Program-made: the position numbers and the translations under genes
NCBI GenBank assembly: GCA_017623155.1
Contig: JAGAPR010000077.1
Span: 1-53,009, forward strand
DNA length: 53,009 nt
From: Prevotella sp.
GTDB lineage: Bacteria; Bacteroidota; Bacteroidia; Bacteroidales; Bacteroidaceae
Direction of reading: 5' to 3'
Part shown: one piece after another, positions 4,909-42,907 of the stretch
How the letters are laid out: the number at the start of each line of letters is the position of its first letter
How positions within the stretch are numbered: position 1 is the first letter of the stretch
Notes under the pieces: model-generated
What the model was told of the DNA's origin: nothing
The model's database searches: none
Seen by the model: the letters and a program-made list of their open reading frames with translations, nothing else

Positions 4909-4989
4909 GGGGATGTTGACATGATGGACAGTCTGCGGGCTGTTTGCCTCTCCCGCTGAACGTCGGTTCGATTCCGGCCATCCTCTCCA
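4909..4989 (+). tRNA. tRNA-like gene with 12-nt anticodon loop (specificity unclear)
   Basis: The acceptor GGGGATG pairs with CATCCTC (one G-U), then T-CCA encoded. D arm GAC...GTC with GG in the loop, 5-bp anticodon stem GCGGG/CCCGC, 5-nt variable loop TGAAC, T arm GTCGG-TTCGATT-CCGGC. Everything is canonical except the anticodon loop, which is 12 nt (CTGTTTGCCTCT). If the first two bases are C32-T33 the triplet would be GTT (Asn), but five extra bases follow. The T arm is nearly identical to that of the tRNA-like gene at 4455. It lies within the structured-RNA region. Confidence 0.6.
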
Positions 4990-5154
4990 ATTCTCCGTGG
5001 ACACCGCGCAAGCGGAATAGTCGGATGGGTTAGGAAGTCCTGAACGATACCCCTCAAGCGGCACGCTGTAATTGCGGTTGTGGCAGTCAATCAAGAGGTC
5101 GTTGTCTCTGCCTGACACTCGGAAAGACGAAATACCAAGGAAGGAGGTAAGCCA

Positions 5155-5349
5155 ATGTTTTCAGGCTTTGGATATTATGACGCATTCCTGGGGCTTGTGT
5201 TCCTTTACGGAATGCAGCTGCACGCTCACTGGCAAATTGCCACAGCTGCAAAAGGAAAAACAAACGTCAAAATTCCTTGGACGGTGGATGTGCCAACAAT
5301 CCATGCCCCGTGCGTTGTTCGGTTCCATACAGCAGCGACGGGCGGTTAG
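5155..5349 (+). CDS. Hypothetical small protein, 64 aa
   Basis: The ATG at 5155 has an excellent site (AAGGAGG, 7 nt upstream). The N-terminal half (MFSGFGYYDAFLGLVFLYGM) is hydrophobic enough for one membrane segment; the rest is polar. No family recognised. It is the only gene with a good start between the structured RNA and the tRNA genes. Confidence 0.5.
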   Translation: MFSGFGYYDAFLGLVFLYGMQLHAHWQIATAAKGKTNVKIPWTVDVPTIHAPCVVRFHTAATGG

Positions 5350-5481
5350 ATATAGCCACCATAAGGATCAATGTGGAAAAGCGCAGGCGTGACATCACAG
5401 CCGCCGCGCCTGCATGGTTATCAAACAGTAGTAGTAGGGCACCATTGGGACGGCGGTTTCACAGAGCGCCGTCCCACAAAC
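5350..5481 (+). other. Non-coding spacer with two strong hairpins before tRNA-Met
   Basis: GCAGGCG (5383-5389) pairs with CGCCTGC (5407-5413), and GGGACGGCG (5447-5455) pairs perfectly with CGCCGTCCC (5467-5475), ending 6 nt before the tRNA-Met gene. There is no U-tract after either, so they are more likely processing or stability elements of a tRNA precursor than terminators. No gene seen. Confidence 0.5.
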
Positions 5482-5556
5482 GGGCGTGTAGCTCAACGGC
5501 AGAGCGGGGGTCTCATAAATCCTTGGTTTCGGGTTCAAGTCCCGCCACGCCCACCA
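5482..5556 (+). tRNA. tRNA-Met (anticodon CAT)
   Basis: Complete cloverleaf: acceptor GGGCGTG/CACGCCC, D arm GCTC...GAGC, anticodon arm GGGGT-CTCATAA-ATCCT, T arm TCGGG-TTCAAGT-CCCGC, and encoded CCA. Anticodon CAT with standard U33 and A37. CAT could also be a lysidine-modified Ile tRNA. Normal loop sizes contrast with the tRNA-like genes upstream. Confidence 0.9.
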
Positions 5557-5638
5557 TTTCGTGCTCTTACCTCCATTGTGCAGCCAGAGACTTCCGCGAG
5601 CACGAATACCGGCGACGCAACTCGGCGCGTCGCCACTT

Positions 5639-5713
5639 GGGGCGTTGGCGAAACGGGAACGCATGCGGCTTTGACCCGCAGATGAGAAGGATCGACACCT
5701 TCACGCCCTGCCA
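5639..5713 (+). tRNA. tRNA-Gln (anticodon TTG)
   Basis: Acceptor GGGGCGT/ACGCCCT (one G-U), discriminator G, encoded CCA. D arm GCG...CGC with a GGG-containing loop, anticodon arm TGCGG-CTTTGAC-CCGCA, T stem GAAGG/CCTTC with loop ATCGACA, whose first base departs from the usual T. Fold and loop sizes are otherwise standard. Confidence 0.85.
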
Positions 5714-12557: not shown

Positions 12558-13472
12558 ATGCGTATAGGCATACACGATGCAGACGATACACGTTTTCCCA
12601 ACCTCGCGCTGATGAAAATATCAGCATGGCATAAAGCGCACGGAGACGACGTGGAGTGGTGGAAACCAATGTTTCCGTATGACAAGGTGTATTCCAGCAA
12701 GGTGTTCACCTTTACGCCGGAGTGCGCCTTTCTGCCTCCCAACACCATCAAAGGTGGGACAGGATACGGCTTGTATAATGAGTTGCCGAACGAAATAGAC
12801 ACCATGCAGCCTGATTACACCATTTATCCCGATTGCAATTATGCGATAGGGTTTCTGACACGCGGATGCATCAGAAACTGCCCGTGGTGCGTTGTCCCTA
12901 AAAAAGAAGGAGCCATACGACCATACCGCACATGGCAGGAGATCAAACGCCCGGACAGCAGGGATATTGTTTTCATGGACAATAACGTGCTGGCCTGTCC
13001 CCACGGCATTGAACAGATGCAAAGCATGGTTGGCCAAAAAGTGCGTATCGACTTCAACCAAGGACTTGATGCACGTTTGATAACGCCGGAGGTTGCGGAA
13101 TTGCTGTCGCAGCTCAAATGGATTCGATTCATCCGCATGAGCTGCGACACAAACCAAATGCTTTTCACCGTCACGACCGCGATCCATCTTCTTGAACGCT
13201 TTGGTATCAAACCATACCGTATATTCATCTATCTTCTTGTGCAAGATGTGCAATCCGCTGAGTTTAGGGCAACGGCACTCAGAGATATGGGCGTCGAAGT
13301 CTTTGCACAACCCTATCGGGATTTTGAGAACAACCTTGAACCGACACCAGAAACCAAGGCGTTCGCTCGATGGGTTAATCACAAAGCAATATTCAATAGT
13401 GTGCGCACATTTGCAGAATACAATACACGCAACCGTGAACGAAAGGGAGAATCATGCGAGAAATTGTTGTAG
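12558..13472 (+). CDS. Radical SAM family protein
   Basis: 304 aa; AGAAGG site. The C104-x3-C108-x2-C111 motif (RGCIRNCPWC) binds the 4Fe-4S cluster that cleaves SAM. The N-terminus (RIGIHDADDTRFPNLALMKISAWHKAHGD) resembles the B12-binding-like region of radical SAM methylthiotransferase relatives, and a TIM-barrel-like remainder follows (DIVFMDNNVLA, IRFIRMSCDT). The substrate is unknown. It lies between an adenine methylase and a cytosine methylase and overlaps the latter by 19 bp, so a nucleic-acid substrate is a reasonable inference; tRNA or protein modification is possible. Confidence 0.8.
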   Translation: MRIGIHDADDTRFPNLALMKISAWHKAHGDDVEWWKPMFPYDKVYSSKVFTFTPECAFLPPNTIKGGTGYGLYNELPNEIDTMQPDYTIYPDCNYAIGFLTRGCIRNCPWCVVPKKEGAIRPYRTWQEIKRPDSRDIVFMDNNVLACPHGIEQMQSMVGQKVRIDFNQGLDARLITPEVAELLSQLKWIRFIRMSCDTNQMLFTVTTAIHLLERFGIKPYRIFIYLLVQDVQSAEFRATALRDMGVEVFAQPYRDFENNLEPTPETKAFARWVNHKAIFNSVRTFAEYNTRNRERKGESCEKLL

Positions 13473-15097
13473 ACAACTTTGCCGGTGGCGGCGGCGCTTC
13501 CACCGGCATTGAAATGGCGATTGGTCGCAGCGTGGATATTGCCATCAACCACGATCCTGCCGCCATTGCCATGCACCGCGCCAACCATCCCATGAGCGAG
13601 CATTATTGCGAGGATGTATGGCATGTTGATCCCGTGGAGGCTTGCAAGGGCAGGCCGGTTGCGCTGGCCTGGTTCTCTCCTGATTGCAAGCACCACAGCA
13701 AGGCCAAGGGCGGGAAACCCGTAAGCAAGAAGATTCGCGGCCTCGCGTGGGTCGCCGTCCGCTGGGCAAAGAAGGTGCATCCTCGCGTAATCATGCTGGA
13801 AAACGTAGAAGAATTTCAGGATTGGGGCCGTCTGGATGGGAATATGAGGCCCGATCCGCGCTACAAGGGTGAAACCTTCCGGCGCTTTGTGCGGCAGCTT
13901 GAGCAGCTGGGTTACAAGGTGGAATGGAGGCTTCTGCGCGCCTGTAACTACGGCGCAGCGACGATCCGCAAGCGTTTATTTGTTGTCGCCAGGTGCGACG
14001 GACTGCCAATCGTCTGGCCGGAGCCGACACACGCCGAGCCGGACACGCTCGAAGTGGTTGCCGGTCTTAAAAAGCCGTGGGTGCCGGTTGCCGATGTACT
14101 GAATTTTGACCTTCCCTGTCCTTCCATCTTTGCAACGAGCGAGGAAATCAAGGAACAATATGGCATCAATGCTGTACGCCCGCTGTCTGAGAAAACCATG
14201 CGCCGGATCGCGCGCGGCGTGATGAAATTCGTCATCAACAATCCGAAACCATTTATCGTACAGGTAAACCATGGCGGCGATGGATTCCGGGGGCAGGATA
14301 TAAGCGATCCGCTGGACACCATTACCGCAAAGCACGGAACAGGCGTAGTTATGCCGGTTATGATGCGCAATAACGAAAACGCAGTCGGAACAGCAGCGGA
14401 TGAACCGCTTGGCACCATTACGACGGGCGGACACCACATGATGATTGCACCCAGCATGATCCAGTATCATGCCGAAAAATCAGGAGAGGTGCGTGGGCAG
14501 GCGGTGGACGAACCCATCATGACGCCGGACGCCAGCAACCGTTATGGCATGGTTTCCACCTTTATCAGCAAGTATTACGGCGGAGGATGCACCAATCCGG
14601 CCAGCGGTGCAGATGAGCCGCTTCCAACGGTTACGGCCATTGACCATAACGCCGTGTGCGCTGCCTATGTGACACAGTTCAACAACAACTGTGATGGGCA
14701 GAGCGTGGACGCACCGCTGAACACCATGACCGCGCACAGCAACCATTTTGGCGAGGTCTGCGCTTTCCTGACCAAATACTACGGCAACGGCGAAAATGCC
14801 GTGTCCTGCGAGCAACCTATGCCCACAATCACAGCAAAAGACCGCATGGCGCTGGTAACGGTTCACGGGCAGGATTACCAGATCGTAGATATTGGCCTAC
14901 GTATGCTGACACCGCGCGAGCTTTTCGACGCACAGGGCTTCCCTTCTGACTACATCATCGACGTGGACGCAGACGGCAAACCCTATCCCAAAAGCGAACA
15001 GGTGGCGCGCTGCGGCAACGCCGTATGCCCGCCTATTCCTGCAGCCCTGGTAAGGGCGAATTTGCCAGAGCTTTGCGAGGAGGCAAAATCAGCATGA
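13454..15097 (+). CDS. DNA (cytosine-5)-methyltransferase with internal repeats
   Basis: 547 aa, longer than a minimal C5 methylase. Motif I DNFAGGGGAS (7-16); catalytic Cys78 in SPDCKHHS, where the usual PCQ is PDC; motif VI ENVEE (116-120); RKRLFVVA (motif VIII-like). C-terminal motifs are RMLTPRELFDAQGF and ARCGNAVCPPI. Between about residues 270 and 480 a unit of roughly 40 residues recurs about six times (A.DEPL.TIT...H....... related to SDPLDTIT, ADEPLGTIT, VDAPLNTMT, CEQPMPTIT). It fills the target-recognition position and is known from phage C5 methylases. It probably methylates phage DNA against host restriction; no partner nuclease is seen. Confidence 0.92.
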   Translation: MREIVVDNFAGGGGASTGIEMAIGRSVDIAINHDPAAIAMHRANHPMSEHYCEDVWHVDPVEACKGRPVALAWFSPDCKHHSKAKGGKPVSKKIRGLAWVAVRWAKKVHPRVIMLENVEEFQDWGRLDGNMRPDPRYKGETFRRFVRQLEQLGYKVEWRLLRACNYGAATIRKRLFVVARCDGLPIVWPEPTHAEPDTLEVVAGLKKPWVPVADVLNFDLPCPSIFATSEEIKEQYGINAVRPLSEKTMRRIARGVMKFVINNPKPFIVQVNHGGDGFRGQDISDPLDTITAKHGTGVVMPVMMRNNENAVGTAADEPLGTITTGGHHMMIAPSMIQYHAEKSGEVRGQAVDEPIMTPDASNRYGMVSTFISKYYGGGCTNPASGADEPLPTVTAIDHNAVCAAYVTQFNNNCDGQSVDAPLNTMTAHSNHFGEVCAFLTKYYGNGENAVSCEQPMPTITAKDRMALVTVHGQDYQIVDIGLRMLTPRELFDAQGFPSDYIIDVDADGKPYPKSEQVARCGNAVCPPIPAALVRANLPELCEEAKSA

Positions 15098-38730: not shown

Positions 38731-39726
38731 ATGAGCAAAGAAACATACACCCCTACCAACTGGAAAGATCATGTTGTTGAACGTCCGAGGACGTACACTT
38801 CCATCCAGAACGAGGATGGCACCATCACCTTGTACCCTGCGCCCGGAACTACCGAGCAGCAAGGCACGCCGATCACCGCATCCAACCTCAACAACATGGA
38901 AACCGGCATTGCCAAAGCGATGCCGAAAGCCAACTATCTGACCGAGGAAGAAGTGGCCGTAATCCTTAACGGAACCGAAGAAGAAGGGCTTCCCGAAGGA
39001 TATGTAGGTCACATCAGCCTTTTCCACCTGTCGGCGTTGCTGAACAAACTGTTCTTGAAGCAGCAGAACGTTGCCAACAACCTTCTTACGGCGGAGGAAG
39101 GGTTTGCGCTTGATGCCCGCATGGGCAAGTATCTGGCTGAAACCAGAGCAGGCATGAAACAGCTTGTGCTTTCGCTGCCGCTGGAAAACTGGAAACCGAC
39201 CGTGAATGTACCCAAAGCGACCGCCGCCGTGTTTGCGGAAACCGATACGACCGTAACCTATACCCTCACCATGGAAGAAGGATGGACGTATGCAACGGGT
39301 TGCGAGGTCGCATTTGATGTTGCGCAAGCGGCAACAAATGCATCCGCAAAGGTTGTTTCCGTCAAGATCGGGGAAGGAAGCTGGGCTTTTGTGACCTCTC
39401 CGACGCTGACGGTCGGCAAAACCGTCGTGGTCAAACTGGCGGACGCTGCTGGTGCATACGCCGCCACCGCCACCATTTCCAGCACTGTTTACACCGAAAA
39501 GACGCCCTACACACAAAACGTCGCCTTGGAGGGCTTGACAGCGGATACCTTCAAATCCTCCGTTGTTTATACCGTGCCTGGCGAAAGCCTGAAAGCTGTT
39601 CAAAAGGCAAAGGCTGCGCCGGTGAAGCAGGGCGACGGCATTCTTACGTTCAGCGCGGCGAAAAAGCCATCTGAAGCCATGTCCTTTGGCATCTTACTCA
39701 TTACGACCGGGGAGGCGGGAACATGA
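38731..39726 (+). CDS. Tail fibre / structural protein, 331 aa
   Basis: AGGAGGG site. The N-terminus (YTPTNWKDHVVERPRTYTSIQNEDGTITLYPAPGTTEQQGTPITASNLNNMETGIA) is a very common attachment region of Bacillota phage tail fibres. Residues about 155-300 look like Ig/bacterial big-domain-like beta folds (TVNVPKATAAVFAETDTTVTYTLTMEEGW). The gene overlaps the DGR target gene by 4 bp, so the two proteins are probably made and assembled together, this one as the shaft. Confidence 0.7.
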   Translation: MSKETYTPTNWKDHVVERPRTYTSIQNEDGTITLYPAPGTTEQQGTPITASNLNNMETGIAKAMPKANYLTEEEVAVILNGTEEEGLPEGYVGHISLFHLSALLNKLFLKQQNVANNLLTAEEGFALDARMGKYLAETRAGMKQLVLSLPLENWKPTVNVPKATAAVFAETDTTVTYTLTMEEGWTYATGCEVAFDVAQAATNASAKVVSVKIGEGSWAFVTSPTLTVGKTVVVKLADAAGAYAATATISSTVYTEKTPYTQNVALEGLTADTFKSSVVYTVPGESLKAVQKAKAAPVKQGDGILTFSAAKKPSEAMSFGILLITTGEAGT

Positions 39727-41159
39727 TTTACGGCAGCAACACAGCATTCAACGAAGGATCGTCCCTTGATCTGATTTCGGCGGCAGTACTGCCGGAAGTA
39801 GCCTTGCGAACGGTGTGCATCGTGACCAGCGAGAACGTCACGGAAATTCTGATGCAAACCAAAGCACCTGACCACGCGACAGGCCGCTGCTGGGTACAGA
39901 TCGAGCAGTACGGCGAGCGCAACACCATTTCCAATGGCGGCGGATTGATGTTCAAGCTGGGACAGGCTTGGCGATCCAATGGAACCGATTGGGTGCCGGT
40001 CAGCGCCTATTACTCGCTTTGGAGCGAATGGGTGCAATTCTCCTGGGAATTTATCGAAGTGGGTTATGAATGGAATTACGCCCAGGCAAGTCCGCTCCTG
40101 ACGCGCACGGGCGCGGCGGTTGGCCTTGAGGCCAGCGCTGGTGTCGGTGTTCTGGCTGGTTCCAGCGGTTTTGACAAGCTGCCGATCTATCGGGACATCG
40201 TTCGCGTGAATCTGGCCGACGATGGCACGATCAACGCCATCGAGGGCGATGAGAAGTTTAAGACGGACGGCAGCAACGGCCAGGTGATGACGCGGATTCC
40301 CGCATTCTATTACAAGGTCGTGAACAATTCCGACGCAAGCAAGCTCGCTGTGAGCGTTTGCAACAACAAGCATGAGGGCTACGAGCTGCATCCTGCATTC
40401 AAGCACAACAACGCCGAGCAACAGTACATCTACGTCGGCAGCTACAAGACCGGCGCGGGCTACACCAGTAAGGCGGGAATTGCGCCGCTGACCAATCAGA
40501 CGCGCGGCGCTACGCGCAGCGGCATCGCAGGAACGCGCGGCGGAGGCTGGTCGATGGTTGACCTCGCCACCCGTCAGGCTATTTCCCTGCTCATGTACAT
40601 CGAGTTCGGCACGCTCGATCTTCAGACGGCGATTGCTCCGGGCGTATCTAATTCCAACAACACCGCTGCCGTCAATACGGGCGGCACGGATGATATTGCC
40701 GGTCATACCGGCAGATGTAGCGGAACCGCCGATAAGGTCAATTTCCGCTGGCGCTACATCGAAGATTGGTGGGGCAATGTCTGGGAGTGGATTGACGGTC
40801 TGAATATCAACGGCGGCGCGTTCTACTACTGCTTGAACCAGGCACAGTTCGCCGATGACACGGCCAGCAACTATACGAAGCTGTCCTACTCTGTCGGCAC
40901 GGGCCTTTCCACTTCCTACGGCACGCGCCTCGGCTACGATCCTGCGGCTCCTTGGTCGCTTCTTCCCAGTGCACACAGCGGCGGCAGCAGCGGAAGCTAT
41001 CTCTGCGACGCTTGCTGGTCGGGTACTGGCTGGCGTGTCGCTAATGCCGGGGGCTACTGGGACAACGCCCTCGCTTGCGGCCCGGCGGCGTGGAATTGGG
41101 ACGATGCCTCGTCGAATGCCAGCGCCGCCCACGGCTCGCGCCTTCTTTTCATCCCCTAA
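39723..41159 (+). CDS. DGR-diversified receptor-binding protein (C-type-lectin-like)
   Basis: 478 aa, ATGA overlap with the upstream fibre gene. The C-terminal ~220 residues resemble the formylglycine-generating-enzyme/C-type-lectin-like fold used by DGR target proteins: IPAFYYKV, FRWRYIEDWWGNVWEWIDGLNI, then GWRVANAGGYW... HGSRLLF. The last ~40 residues, the ligand-facing surface, are encoded by the variable repeat (41027-41141). It presumably forms the tail tip that contacts the host surface. Variant positions (Tyr, Asp, Ala, Ser) correspond to Asn/Asp codons in the template. Confidence 0.88.
   Translation: MIYGSNTAFNEGSSLDLISAAVLPEVALRTVCIVTSENVTEILMQTKAPDHATGRCWVQIEQYGERNTISNGGGLMFKLGQAWRSNGTDWVPVSAYYSLWSEWVQFSWEFIEVGYEWNYAQASPLLTRTGAAVGLEASAGVGVLAGSSGFDKLPIYRDIVRVNLADDGTINAIEGDEKFKTDGSNGQVMTRIPAFYYKVVNNSDASKLAVSVCNNKHEGYELHPAFKHNNAEQQYIYVGSYKTGAGYTSKAGIAPLTNQTRGATRSGIAGTRGGGWSMVDLATRQAISLLMYIEFGTLDLQTAIAPGVSNSNNTAAVNTGGTDDIAGHTGRCSGTADKVNFRWRYIEDWWGNVWEWIDGLNINGGAFYYCLNQAQFADDTASNYTKLSYSVGTGLSTSYGTRLGYDPAAPWSLLPSAHSGGSSGSYLCDACWSGTGWRVANAGGYWDNALACGPAAWNWDDASSNASAAHGSRLLFIP
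41027..41141 (+). repeat. DGR variable repeat (VR)
   Basis: 115 bp aligned without gaps to the template repeat at 41294-41408. Nine differences, each at a template adenine: A to G at five sites, A to C at three, A to T at one; none among the 92 non-adenine sites. The 3' end (CACGGCTCGCGC) is GC-rich and identical in both, as expected for the initiation-of-mutagenic-homing region. Confidence 0.95.
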
Positions 41160-41193
41160 GGGGGATGCAAGGGGGAGCGCACTCCCCCTTGCA
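41150..41193 (+). other. Hairpins just downstream of VR (DGR homing signal candidate and terminator)
   Basis: Hairpin 1: CATCCCC-TAAG-GGGGATG (41150-41167), 7 bp and a 4-nt loop that contains the target gene's stop codon, 8 nt past the VR. Hairpin 2: TGCAAGGGGGAG-CGCA-CTCCCCCTTGCA (41166-41193), 12 bp. They share TG, so only one fully forms at a time. In the Bordetella phage DGR a short stem with a 4-nt loop a few bases past the VR is needed for efficient homing; hairpin 1 matches that in place and size. Hairpin 2 could be a terminator, but has no good U-tract. Confidence 0.7.
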
Positions 41194-41249
41194 CGCTTCT
41201 TAACGGCGTAATTCAGGAGGCGGAAACCCTTTTACGAAACGCAACGCGC

Positions 41250-41268
41250 ACGCGCGCCTCACGCGCGT
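41250..41268 (+). other. GC hairpin preceding the template repeat
   Basis: ACGCGCG (41250-41256) pairs with CGCGCGT (41262-41268), loop CCTCA, with a further GCGC/GCGC pairing outside. It lies 25 nt upstream of the template repeat and may help fold or delimit the DGR template RNA. Confidence 0.45.
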
Positions 41269-41293
41269 AGCGCATAACGGGATGGCCGCGCTG

Positions 41294-41408
41294 TGGCTGG
41301 CGTGTCGCTAATGCCGGGGGCAACTGGAACAACGCCCTCGATTGCGGCCCGGCGGCGTGGAATTGGAACAATGACTCGTCGAATGCCAACGCCAACCACG
41401 GCTCGCGC
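41294..41408 (+). repeat. DGR template repeat (TR)
   Basis: 115 bp, 23 of them adenines, arranged mainly as AAC/AAT codons in the target frame, the typical TR design. It lies between the target gene and the reverse transcriptase and is presumably transcribed as the non-coding template RNA. No ORF of note covers it; 41409-41538 before the RT start holds no gene. Confidence 0.95.
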
Positions 41409-41538
41409 ACTCTTGTGAAAACTGAATACATGGCGCGGTCATCCCACGGCCATCAAAGGCCGAGAAATTGATCCCAGGGACGCAGGCTGGTAGCCAAAAA
41501 GCGAACGCTTGCGAGGGTCACAAGAAGGGTTGCTGGAT

Positions 41539-42684
41539 ATGAAAAGAATCGGCAATGTATATCCCACGATGCAAAGTGTGTCGAACTGTGAAAGGGCGAT
41601 CCACAAAGCATCGGAACACAAAAGAAGCAGGATTGAAGTCAAAGAAGTCCTGGACGATTTGACACAGCGCGCAAAGGCGCTCCCTGCACTCATCGACAAC
41701 TACGTTCCATCGCCATACCGCAAGATCACCAGAGCGGATGGCCTGAAACGCAAGCAGCGGCACATCCTTGTGCCGAAATTTTGGCCGGATCAGTGCGTAC
41801 AGCATGCGGTCATCGATCCTCTGGTGCCTCATCTGATCAAACGGATGTACTATTGGAGCTGCGGAAGCATCAAAGGTCGCGGCGTAAAGCATGCACAGCG
41901 TGGGATTGAACGCGCTACCATGCGTGATCCGAAGCATGCAAAGTATTGCCTGCAAATGGACATCAAGCATTGCTATGAGAACATACGCAACGAGCCTTTG
42001 ATAGCCATATTGCACCAATTCATCAAGGATAAGCGCGCCTTGGCTGTTCTGGAACGAATCGTAAAGTCGAACGAAACACTTCCTATCGGCAATTATTCAA
42101 GTCCCTGGTTCTGCAACCTCTACCTTACACCGCTTGACCGCTTCATCACGGAGCAGATCAAGCCTGCGCATTATGTGCGCTACGCGGATGATTTCGTTCT
42201 GTTGGACAGCAACAAGCGGAAATTGACCAAAGCCGAAAAACTGATCCGGGAGTTTACAGAAAAGCATCTGTTCCTTTCGCTGCATGACAACGCCTGCGTT
42301 TTCAAGGTGCGACGCGCTGGAGAGAACCCCAAAAGCAATAACCGCCCCGTGGACTTCGTAGGCATGCGCTTTTGCATCGGATATACGGTGCTTCGCAAGC
42401 AAAACGCGCTGGCGCTCATGCGCCAAAGCAGAAAAATTCAAAAGGCCCTCATCGAAGGGAAACCCATCAACTACAAGACTGCCAGCGGCTTTATCTCTCG
42501 TTCCGCGCAGCTCAAGCATTGCAGATCGCATGGCCTGCGTGTGAAATACGTCGATCCCATTGACATCAAAATTCTCAAAGGAGTGATTAAGGGTGAAAGT
42601 AAACGCCAACAGCGCGCCCGTTCTGTCGTATGCCGTGCAGAGGCATCCCCAGCAGCCGGACAAAGCCATTGTAACCCTGCGTGA
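41539..42684 (+). CDS. DGR reverse transcriptase
   Basis: 381 aa from ATG 41539 (AGAAGGG 9 nt upstream; an upstream TTG lacks a site). RT motifs: QMDIKHCYENI with catalytic D141, LPIGNYSSPWFCNLYLTPLDR (183-201), and YVRYADD with D217/D218. GMRFCIGYT corresponds to a later palm/thumb motif. The block normally read as I/LGxxxSQ in DGR RTs is IGNYSSPW here, with Ser in place of Gln, a residue linked to low-fidelity adenine copying. It copies the TR RNA with random bases at adenines. The C-terminal 30 codons overlap the next gene. Confidence 0.92.
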   Translation: MKRIGNVYPTMQSVSNCERAIHKASEHKRSRIEVKEVLDDLTQRAKALPALIDNYVPSPYRKITRADGLKRKQRHILVPKFWPDQCVQHAVIDPLVPHLIKRMYYWSCGSIKGRGVKHAQRGIERATMRDPKHAKYCLQMDIKHCYENIRNEPLIAILHQFIKDKRALAVLERIVKSNETLPIGNYSSPWFCNLYLTPLDRFITEQIKPAHYVRYADDFVLLDSNKRKLTKAEKLIREFTEKHLFLSLHDNACVFKVRRAGENPKSNNRPVDFVGMRFCIGYTVLRKQNALALMRQSRKIQKALIEGKPINYKTASGFISRSAQLKHCRSHGLRVKYVDPIDIKILKGVIKGESKRQQRARSVVCRAEASPAAGQSHCNPA

Positions 42685-42907
42685 GAACGTGGTTACGGTG
42701 GATGAAAACACCGTAACATATGATGAGTACATCGTTATCGTGCCGTGGTACGACAACCTGACGATGGATGTTGCGAAGAACGTCGATCAATGGTTGGCGT
42801 CTGCCCGCAGCATGGAACCTTCTGCCGCCACGTTGGCTGTTGCTGCCGAAGAACTGGCCGACATGCAGAATGCCCTTGATATTTTGGAGGAATACGCAGA
42901 TGAGTGA
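42593..42907 (+). CDS. Hypothetical tail-module protein, 104 aa
   Basis: GTG start with AAAGGAG upstream, lying 92 bp inside the RT gene in another frame. NVVTVDENTVTYDEYIVIVPWYDNLTMDVAKNVDQWLASAR and a C-terminal acidic helix (LADMQNALDILEEYADE). Acidic overall, so unlike the basic four-helix Avd accessory of many DGRs. Similar small proteins occur downstream of tail fibres in Bacillota phages. Unknown function. Confidence 0.6.
   Translation: MKVNANSAPVLSYAVQRHPQQPDKAIVTLRENVVTVDENTVTYDEYIVIVPWYDNLTMDVAKNVDQWLASARSMEPSAATLAVAAEELADMQNALDILEEYADE

Follow-up and report, generated by a model that had tools for sequence, protein, structure and literature searches.

The 53,009-nt window analysed here (contig JAGAPR010000077.1 of the Prevotella sp. 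assembly GCA_017623155.1, positions 1 to 53,009) carries a diversity-generating retroelement (DGR), in which a tail-protein gene with a variable repeat (VR) at its 3′ end is followed by a template repeat (TR) and the gene of a reverse transcriptase (RT). It is a real, ordinary and well-formed DGR of a known kind, and the spacer between its TR and RT contains a relative of the Rfam RNA family RT-18. The features are, in order:

39723-41159, forward strand: target gene, tail protein (PHROG 5302, E 8e-65), with a C-terminal FGE-type C-type-lectin-like domain predicted by a model from about residue 108
41027-41141, forward strand: VR, its 3′ end lying 15 nt short of the end of the last sense codon
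41166-41193, forward strand: perfect hairpin of 12 bp with a 4-nt loop, downstream of VR and before TR
41294-41408, forward strand: TR, with 23 adenines, nine of which differ in VR
41411-41418, forward strand: 5′ arm of the proposed outer helix P0, TCTTGTGA, starting 2 nt after TR
41447-41527, forward strand: structured RNA resembling RT-18, in the spacer between TR and RT (Rfam RF03021, 32.1 bits; model R1, 35.5 bits)
41447-41451/41458-41462, forward strand: helix P1 of the RT-18-like RNA
41481-41487/41507-41513, forward strand: helix P2, enclosing the internal loop UGGUA/GAAC
41518-41525, forward strand: 3′ arm of the proposed P0, TCACAAGA, overlapping the Shine-Dalgarno-like AAGAAGG of the RT gene at 41522-41528
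41539-42684, forward strand: RT of 381 amino acids, with LPIGNYSSPW in motif 4 and YADD (Pfam RVT_1, 2.7e-18; PHROG 1423)

The positions of the target gene, VR and TR and the end of the RT at 42684 are those given in a preliminary description of this DNA, which had read the locus as a complete DGR diversifying a tail-tip protein. Adenine-only repeat differences, RT tree, RT profile match and target fold all agree with the DGR assignment.

The repeats and their tail-protein target

VR and TR align over 115 positions without a gap. A recount returned the same nine differences that had been listed before (41322, 41328, 41341, 41367, 41370, 41374, 41389, 41394 and 41395), 9/9 at template adenines, and all 92 non-adenine positions of TR are identical in VR. 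The chance value of five in ten million quoted in the preliminary description equals 0.2^9 (5.1e-7); the hypergeometric value, for a draw without replacement, is 1.2e-7. A repeat search that disregards which bases differ recovered the pair as well (132 nt, 88%), and a 601-base DNA query found no second copy of the repeat elsewhere in the genome bin to which the contig belongs. The 3′ edge of the pair is fuzzy, because a tenth adenine mismatch at 41409 precedes a non-adenine mismatch at 41410; the two repeats part ways at 41409-41415, in the manner of a possible initiation of mutagenic homing (IMH/IMH*) pair. Stems after VR have a median of 7 bp in 105 loci, compared with a mean of 4.0 in shuffles. 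The template adenines occupy 13 codons (six AAC, four AAT and one each of GAT, GAC and CAC), and random change at these adenines can create a stop in none of the 13. The possible residue combinations number 3.7e13, and eight residues now differ between TR and VR.

Relatives of the locus, cited below by handles such as L065, show the same base preference. A template-base scan of 80 viral relatives returned adenine in 59, guanine in two (each the mirror of an adenine pair) and cytosine or thymine in none. A looser search found a repeat pair in 106 of 131 loci, this search itself leaning to adenine. Three pairs of relatives, L065/L068, L080/L088 and L089/L090, have zero differences over 6,727 flanking positions and 15, 14 and 20 differences in VR, respectively, 48 of these 49 at template adenines. 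RT and VR are both identical in L060/L061, L065/L067, L081/L082, L093/L094 and L098/L149. The three pairs that diverge in VR only show natural diversification by cassettes lacking the accessory protein Avd, the Avd search having covered L067 (identical to L065 in RT, TR and VR) and L088, not L068, L080, L089 or L090.

The target protein of the window returned no match in Pfam. A profile of 28 targets, searched against the PDB, matched TaqVP (PDB code 5vf4; E 9.6e-11), identified in a passage of PMC6328139 as the variable protein of a Thermus aquaticus DGR, and the last part of the profile matched the variable end of Mtd weakly (E 0.14). The AlphaFold2 model of the target has a mean pLDDT of 79.4 and is confident from about residue 108, with low values for residues 1-107. 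In a Foldseek search of the PDB with this model, the nine best matches were DGR variable proteins, three of them at E ≤ 0.001: three chains of TaqVP (E ~1.2e-10, TM-scores 0.36-0.50), five of Mtd (E 2e-3 to 1.4e-2) and a Treponema denticola variable protein (E 0.15), all with modest TM-scores (0.25-0.50). Profile and Foldseek matches thus support, at these TM-scores, the C-type-lectin-like end that had been claimed for the protein, and VR lies at the 3′ end of the gene for this predicted fold. As for the name tail-tip protein, the tail assignment is borne out by PHROG 5302 and by the position just after the Baseplate_J and Tail_P2_I genes, while a location at the tip is suggested by gene order.

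The reverse transcriptase and the search for an accessory protein

The RT most likely starts at the ATG at 41539 and not at the TTG at 41509 of the open reading frame list, since the Shine-Dalgarno-like AAGAAGG lies at 41522-41528. As proposed in the preliminary description, the enzyme was compared with DGR RTs, and it falls among them. In a tree of 45 rows, 35 DGR RTs split from 10 group II-like RTs with an SH-aLRT support of 100, and the window RT pairs with that of viral contig L050 (support 99) inside the DGR RTs; the tree was made by a quick method, drew on 18 relatives from the viral and genomic set of 122 and has a long branch in L018. A profile of 34 RTs searched against the PDB matched 8ub7 best (E 8.7e-46; next entry, E 7.4e-27), and the RT chain of 8ub7 has the sequence of Brt, the RT of Bordetella phage BPP-1. 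Some of the 126 aligned RT rows have a sequence other than YxDD (YMDN in 14, YVDN in one and NxDD in 15, among them L093, L106, L110 and L115), and there are RTs without YxDD whose TR/VR differences are nevertheless adenine-only, such as L093 (22/22) and L067 (17/17).

No Avd was found. PF22296 (bAvd) had no match in the window's genome and 29 further records (24 viral contigs and five phages), with BPP-1 matching as positive control, and PF05635 had none in 25 phage and virus records. The latter family matched at two places in the bin, on contigs 57 and 102, neither of which carries a DGR RT, and the window cassette has no room for Avd between VR and RT. This absence is one of PF22296 and PF05635 matches, HRDC and MSL accessory proteins not having been searched for, and as many viral records are fragments it is not shown for each of them. 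Because no Avd was found, we do not file the window DGR as BPP-1-type. Its layout has precedents: passages of PMC7290462 describe a quarter of DGRs as lacking an accessory homologue and target-TR-RT DGRs without Avd as known, and a part of PMC5883640 reports Avd only in two F. prausnitzii phages and, where DGRs lack it, proposes "another small protein".

One candidate for such a protein, the gene at 42593-42907, was weakly rejected as an Avd analogue. Its acidic product of 104 amino acids, encoded in overlap with the RT end, has a net charge of -12, compared with +6 for BPP-1 Avd. Of 119 loci, 29 have a relative of this gene after the RT; another relative lies in the fecal phage MT835573, where the 10 kb examined held no weighty RT match, which speaks against an Avd role.

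A structured RNA between TR and RT

RT-18 RNA was reportedly defined by Weinberg et al. in 2017, and its link to DGRs may already be in print; it was not named in the open-licence PubMed Central literature that we searched. The window RNA aligns with RF03021 over the full length of the family and shares its two helices and, in the internal loop, GUA and GAA, differing in a stretched first hairpin. For a more sensitive search we used model R1, built with the window excluded from 54 RT-18 stretches (53 from the 64 viral relatives described next, near-copies dropped, plus L034). R1 scores 35.5 bits on the window (E 3.7e-6), the next place in the 53 kb reaching 10.2 bits, and in the bin, with 150 of 592 candidates scored, R1 reaches E ≤ 0.001 nowhere but at the window RNA.

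RT-18 lies at or over the Rfam cut-off in 64 of the 80 viral relatives (19, 16, 12 and 17 per 20), and R1 recovers 15 of the remaining 16, for a total of 79/80; the one missed, L074, is cut 27 nt upstream of its RT. The 42 genomic relatives come for the most part from Clostridia and Levilactobacillus; R1 matches 38 of them at E ≤ 0.1, 37 of these below 1e-4, and misses four, two of which (L154 and L173) break off at the RT. The relatives include duplicate records, L103 being Lactobacillus phage LBR48 and L098/L149 and L109/L151 being the same contigs. The RNA lies between the TR end and the RT start in 103/103 loci that have both, a count that takes in the window and also the bin's second DGR, and in most loci it ends 0-18 nt upstream of the RT. 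Pairing is kept through two-sided changes, in at least one row, at 11 of the 12 base pairs of the RNA. Two further matches may be mentioned. In the crAss-like phage cr52_1 (L039, 4001-5026), R1 finds the RNA at the RT start (34.3 bits), and the RT carries in-frame TAG codons, so that stop-codon reassignment is likely. The second DGR of the bin (L040, 5278-5975, on contig 80) has 21/21 TR/VR mismatches at adenines, GNHPSIF in RT motif 4 and a weak R1 match (25.2 bits, E 0.0036) ending 10 nt upstream of its RT.

We propose that the RNA is closed by a partly covarying outer helix, P0, which would link the TR end to the Shine-Dalgarno of the RT gene and lies outside the 84-nt Rfam RT-18 model. RT-18 ends in a stretch complementary to the bases just after TR; in the window the two arms are TCTTGTGA/TCACAAGA. 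Over 84 distinct loci the longest run of pairs averages 8.1, compared with 5.9 in single-base shuffles, 6.2 with the arms swapped and 5.4 with another linker stretch as control (55 loci), and 46 of the 84 loci beat 95% of their own shuffles. When 55 of the 84 were aligned (17 were excluded for linker length and 12 dropped as long or divergent), 71% of cells paired, compared with at most 64% when the arms were slid, and 52 cells had two-sided changes, compared with at most 30. Two of five measures, the pairs with two-sided changes and further pair types, were no higher than in shuffles.

Other DGRs have other RNA families at the same spacer position, Phage_DGR in BPP-1 and RT-4 in Epona. A core descriptor shared by RT-18 and Phage_DGR (stem, GUA, inner stem, GAA, stem) was rejected, being present in only 65 of 121 RT-18 loci. 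It matches the window and the archaeal-virus contig L038 (0/300 shuffles as good in each case); it found nothing in BPP-1, Epona, Perkons, cr52_1 or the second DGR of the bin, and in eight cellular DGRs it found one match, at 0.053. With filters off, R1 has its best place in L038 in the spacer (15.1 bits, E 0.028). In Epona its spacer score of 8.0 bits (E 1.7; next place, 7.9) is no evidence, and the BPP-1 spacer gave no match. Because the descriptor fails so widely, a unification of the families rests on position and the look of the consensus. We offer it as a tentative idea, somewhat more likely to be wrong than right: RT-18, RT-4 and Phage_DGR may descend from one ancestral DGR RNA, with RT-18 as the spacer RNA of Avd-less phage DGRs, RNA and RT replacing Avd, and P0 letting template binding and RT synthesis control each other.

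Phage context, mechanism and rival explanations

The 53-kb contig is part of a 2.74 Mb genome bin, 84% complete and 4% contaminated. PHROG and Pfam matches among 29 chosen open reading frames, and not all genes, include terminase, portal, protease, major head protein, tail sheath and tape measure; the Baseplate_J and Tail_P2_I genes follow, then the target, then the RT. Judged by this gene order, the carrier is a contractile-tailed phage. It also carries genes for tRNA-Asn, tRNA-Met and tRNA-Gln (4909-5713) and a match to a DNA methyltransferase family (13454-15097), and the window matches a transposase family at 1698-2729.

The locus is very probably a DGR of a phage, laid out as target-VR-TR-RT and working through a folded spacer, with no accessory protein detected. 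TR and the downstream spacer would be transcribed, and the RT would bind the folded spacer RNA, a relative of RT-18 that is closed by the outer helix starting 2 nt past TR. The cDNA would start at the 3′ end of TR, the RT would misincorporate opposite template adenines, and the cDNA would replace VR beside the hairpin. The tail protein would be altered at up to 13 residues of its C-type-lectin domain and, with them, probably in its receptor binding. The switching of host tropism, named in the preliminary description as the use of such systems, may by analogy with BPP-1 be the role here as well.

The BPP-1 DGR (mtd-avd-TR-brt) resembles that of the window in its C-type-lectin target end, the VR at the 3′ end, the hairpin after VR, the succession of TR, structured spacer RNA and RT, and the adenine-only differences. 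It differs in carrying avd, which separates VR from TR, and in a spacer RNA of the family Phage_DGR (RF03022); in the window no Avd was found and the spacer RNA is a relative of RT-18. R1 has no match in BPP-1. Closer in layout is lineage 3 of Wu et al., as outlined in a part of PMC7290462, with the order target-VR-TR-RT, no avd and a C-type-lectin target in a tail protein; we liken the window to it by gene order and missing avd, not by RT branch. Lactobacillus phage LBR48, Butyrivibrio phage Arawn and viral contig L050 have RTs 34-50% identical to that of the window, and all three carry an RT-18-like RNA upstream of the RT. The TR/VR pairs of Arawn and L050 have 9/9 and 16/16 mismatches at adenines. 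Motif 4 reads SSP in the window, TSA in L050 and SQ in LBR48 and Arawn.

Several points weigh against the folded-spacer DGR. The window RNA stays under the gathering cut-off of RF03021 (41.3 bits), the fold of the window spacer is no more stable than its shuffles (z -0.52), its minimum-energy fold is without P2 or P0, an RNAalifold prediction is without P0, and the P0 of the window is by itself borderline, 5 of 100 shuffles pairing as well. Avd is essential for retrohoming in BPP-1 (stated in a passage of PMC12875486), so that a mechanism without it needs another explanation. Motif 4 of the RT has SP instead of SQ, and only 9 of the 23 template adenines differ in VR. The nearest RT relative is 50% identical, no near-identical relative of the phage was found, and a direct search of viral contigs for its RT gave no match. 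The host of the phage is unsure, given the completeness and contamination of the bin.

That the RT-18-like RNA is a mere leader controlling RT translation, and no site of RT binding or priming, appears unlikely. A leader would fit the RNA's 3′ end, which holds the Shine-Dalgarno of the RT and would be covered by P0, and its short distance from the RT, 0-18 nt in most loci. Yet a mere leader would have no need of a helix that, like P0, starts directly at the end of TR, and in BPP-1 the spacer at the same place, although of a different RNA family (Phage_DGR), recruits RT-Avd when folded and primes the cDNA from a spacer adenine, as a section of PMC12875486 reports; the two roles are, moreover, not exclusive.

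Less probable still, at about the level of a long shot, is a decayed or silent DGR, with old VR differences and an RT or RNA that no longer works. The SP motif, the modest number of altered adenines and the divergence of the RNA would suit it; the frames of RT and target are open, however, and no non-adenine change has entered the 115 nt. SQ in motif 4 is typical of DGR RTs in general, and among 126 aligned RTs (two rows misaligned) it occurs in 100 and SP in four. We do not take it as defining, because relatives with adenine-biased repeats lack it too: L081-L083 read SP and have 17/18, 17/18 and 15/16 TR/VR mismatches at adenines. The window copy may still be active. The idea that the repeat arose by chance or by ordinary duplication, next to an RT of group II or retron type, can be set aside, for although generic RT profiles match too (NCBIfam group II at E 9.8e-23, far under its cut-off, and PADLOC RT models), it is contradicted by the p value of 1.2e-7, by the placement of the RT among DGR RTs in tree and profile and by the base scan of 80 relatives (A 59, G 2, C 0, T 0).

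The missing Avd and the conserved spacer RNA are additions to the preliminary description. The partner conserved beside the RT is here an RNA and not a protein, and the start of cDNA synthesis in Avd-less DGRs therefore becomes directly testable with purified RT and RNA.

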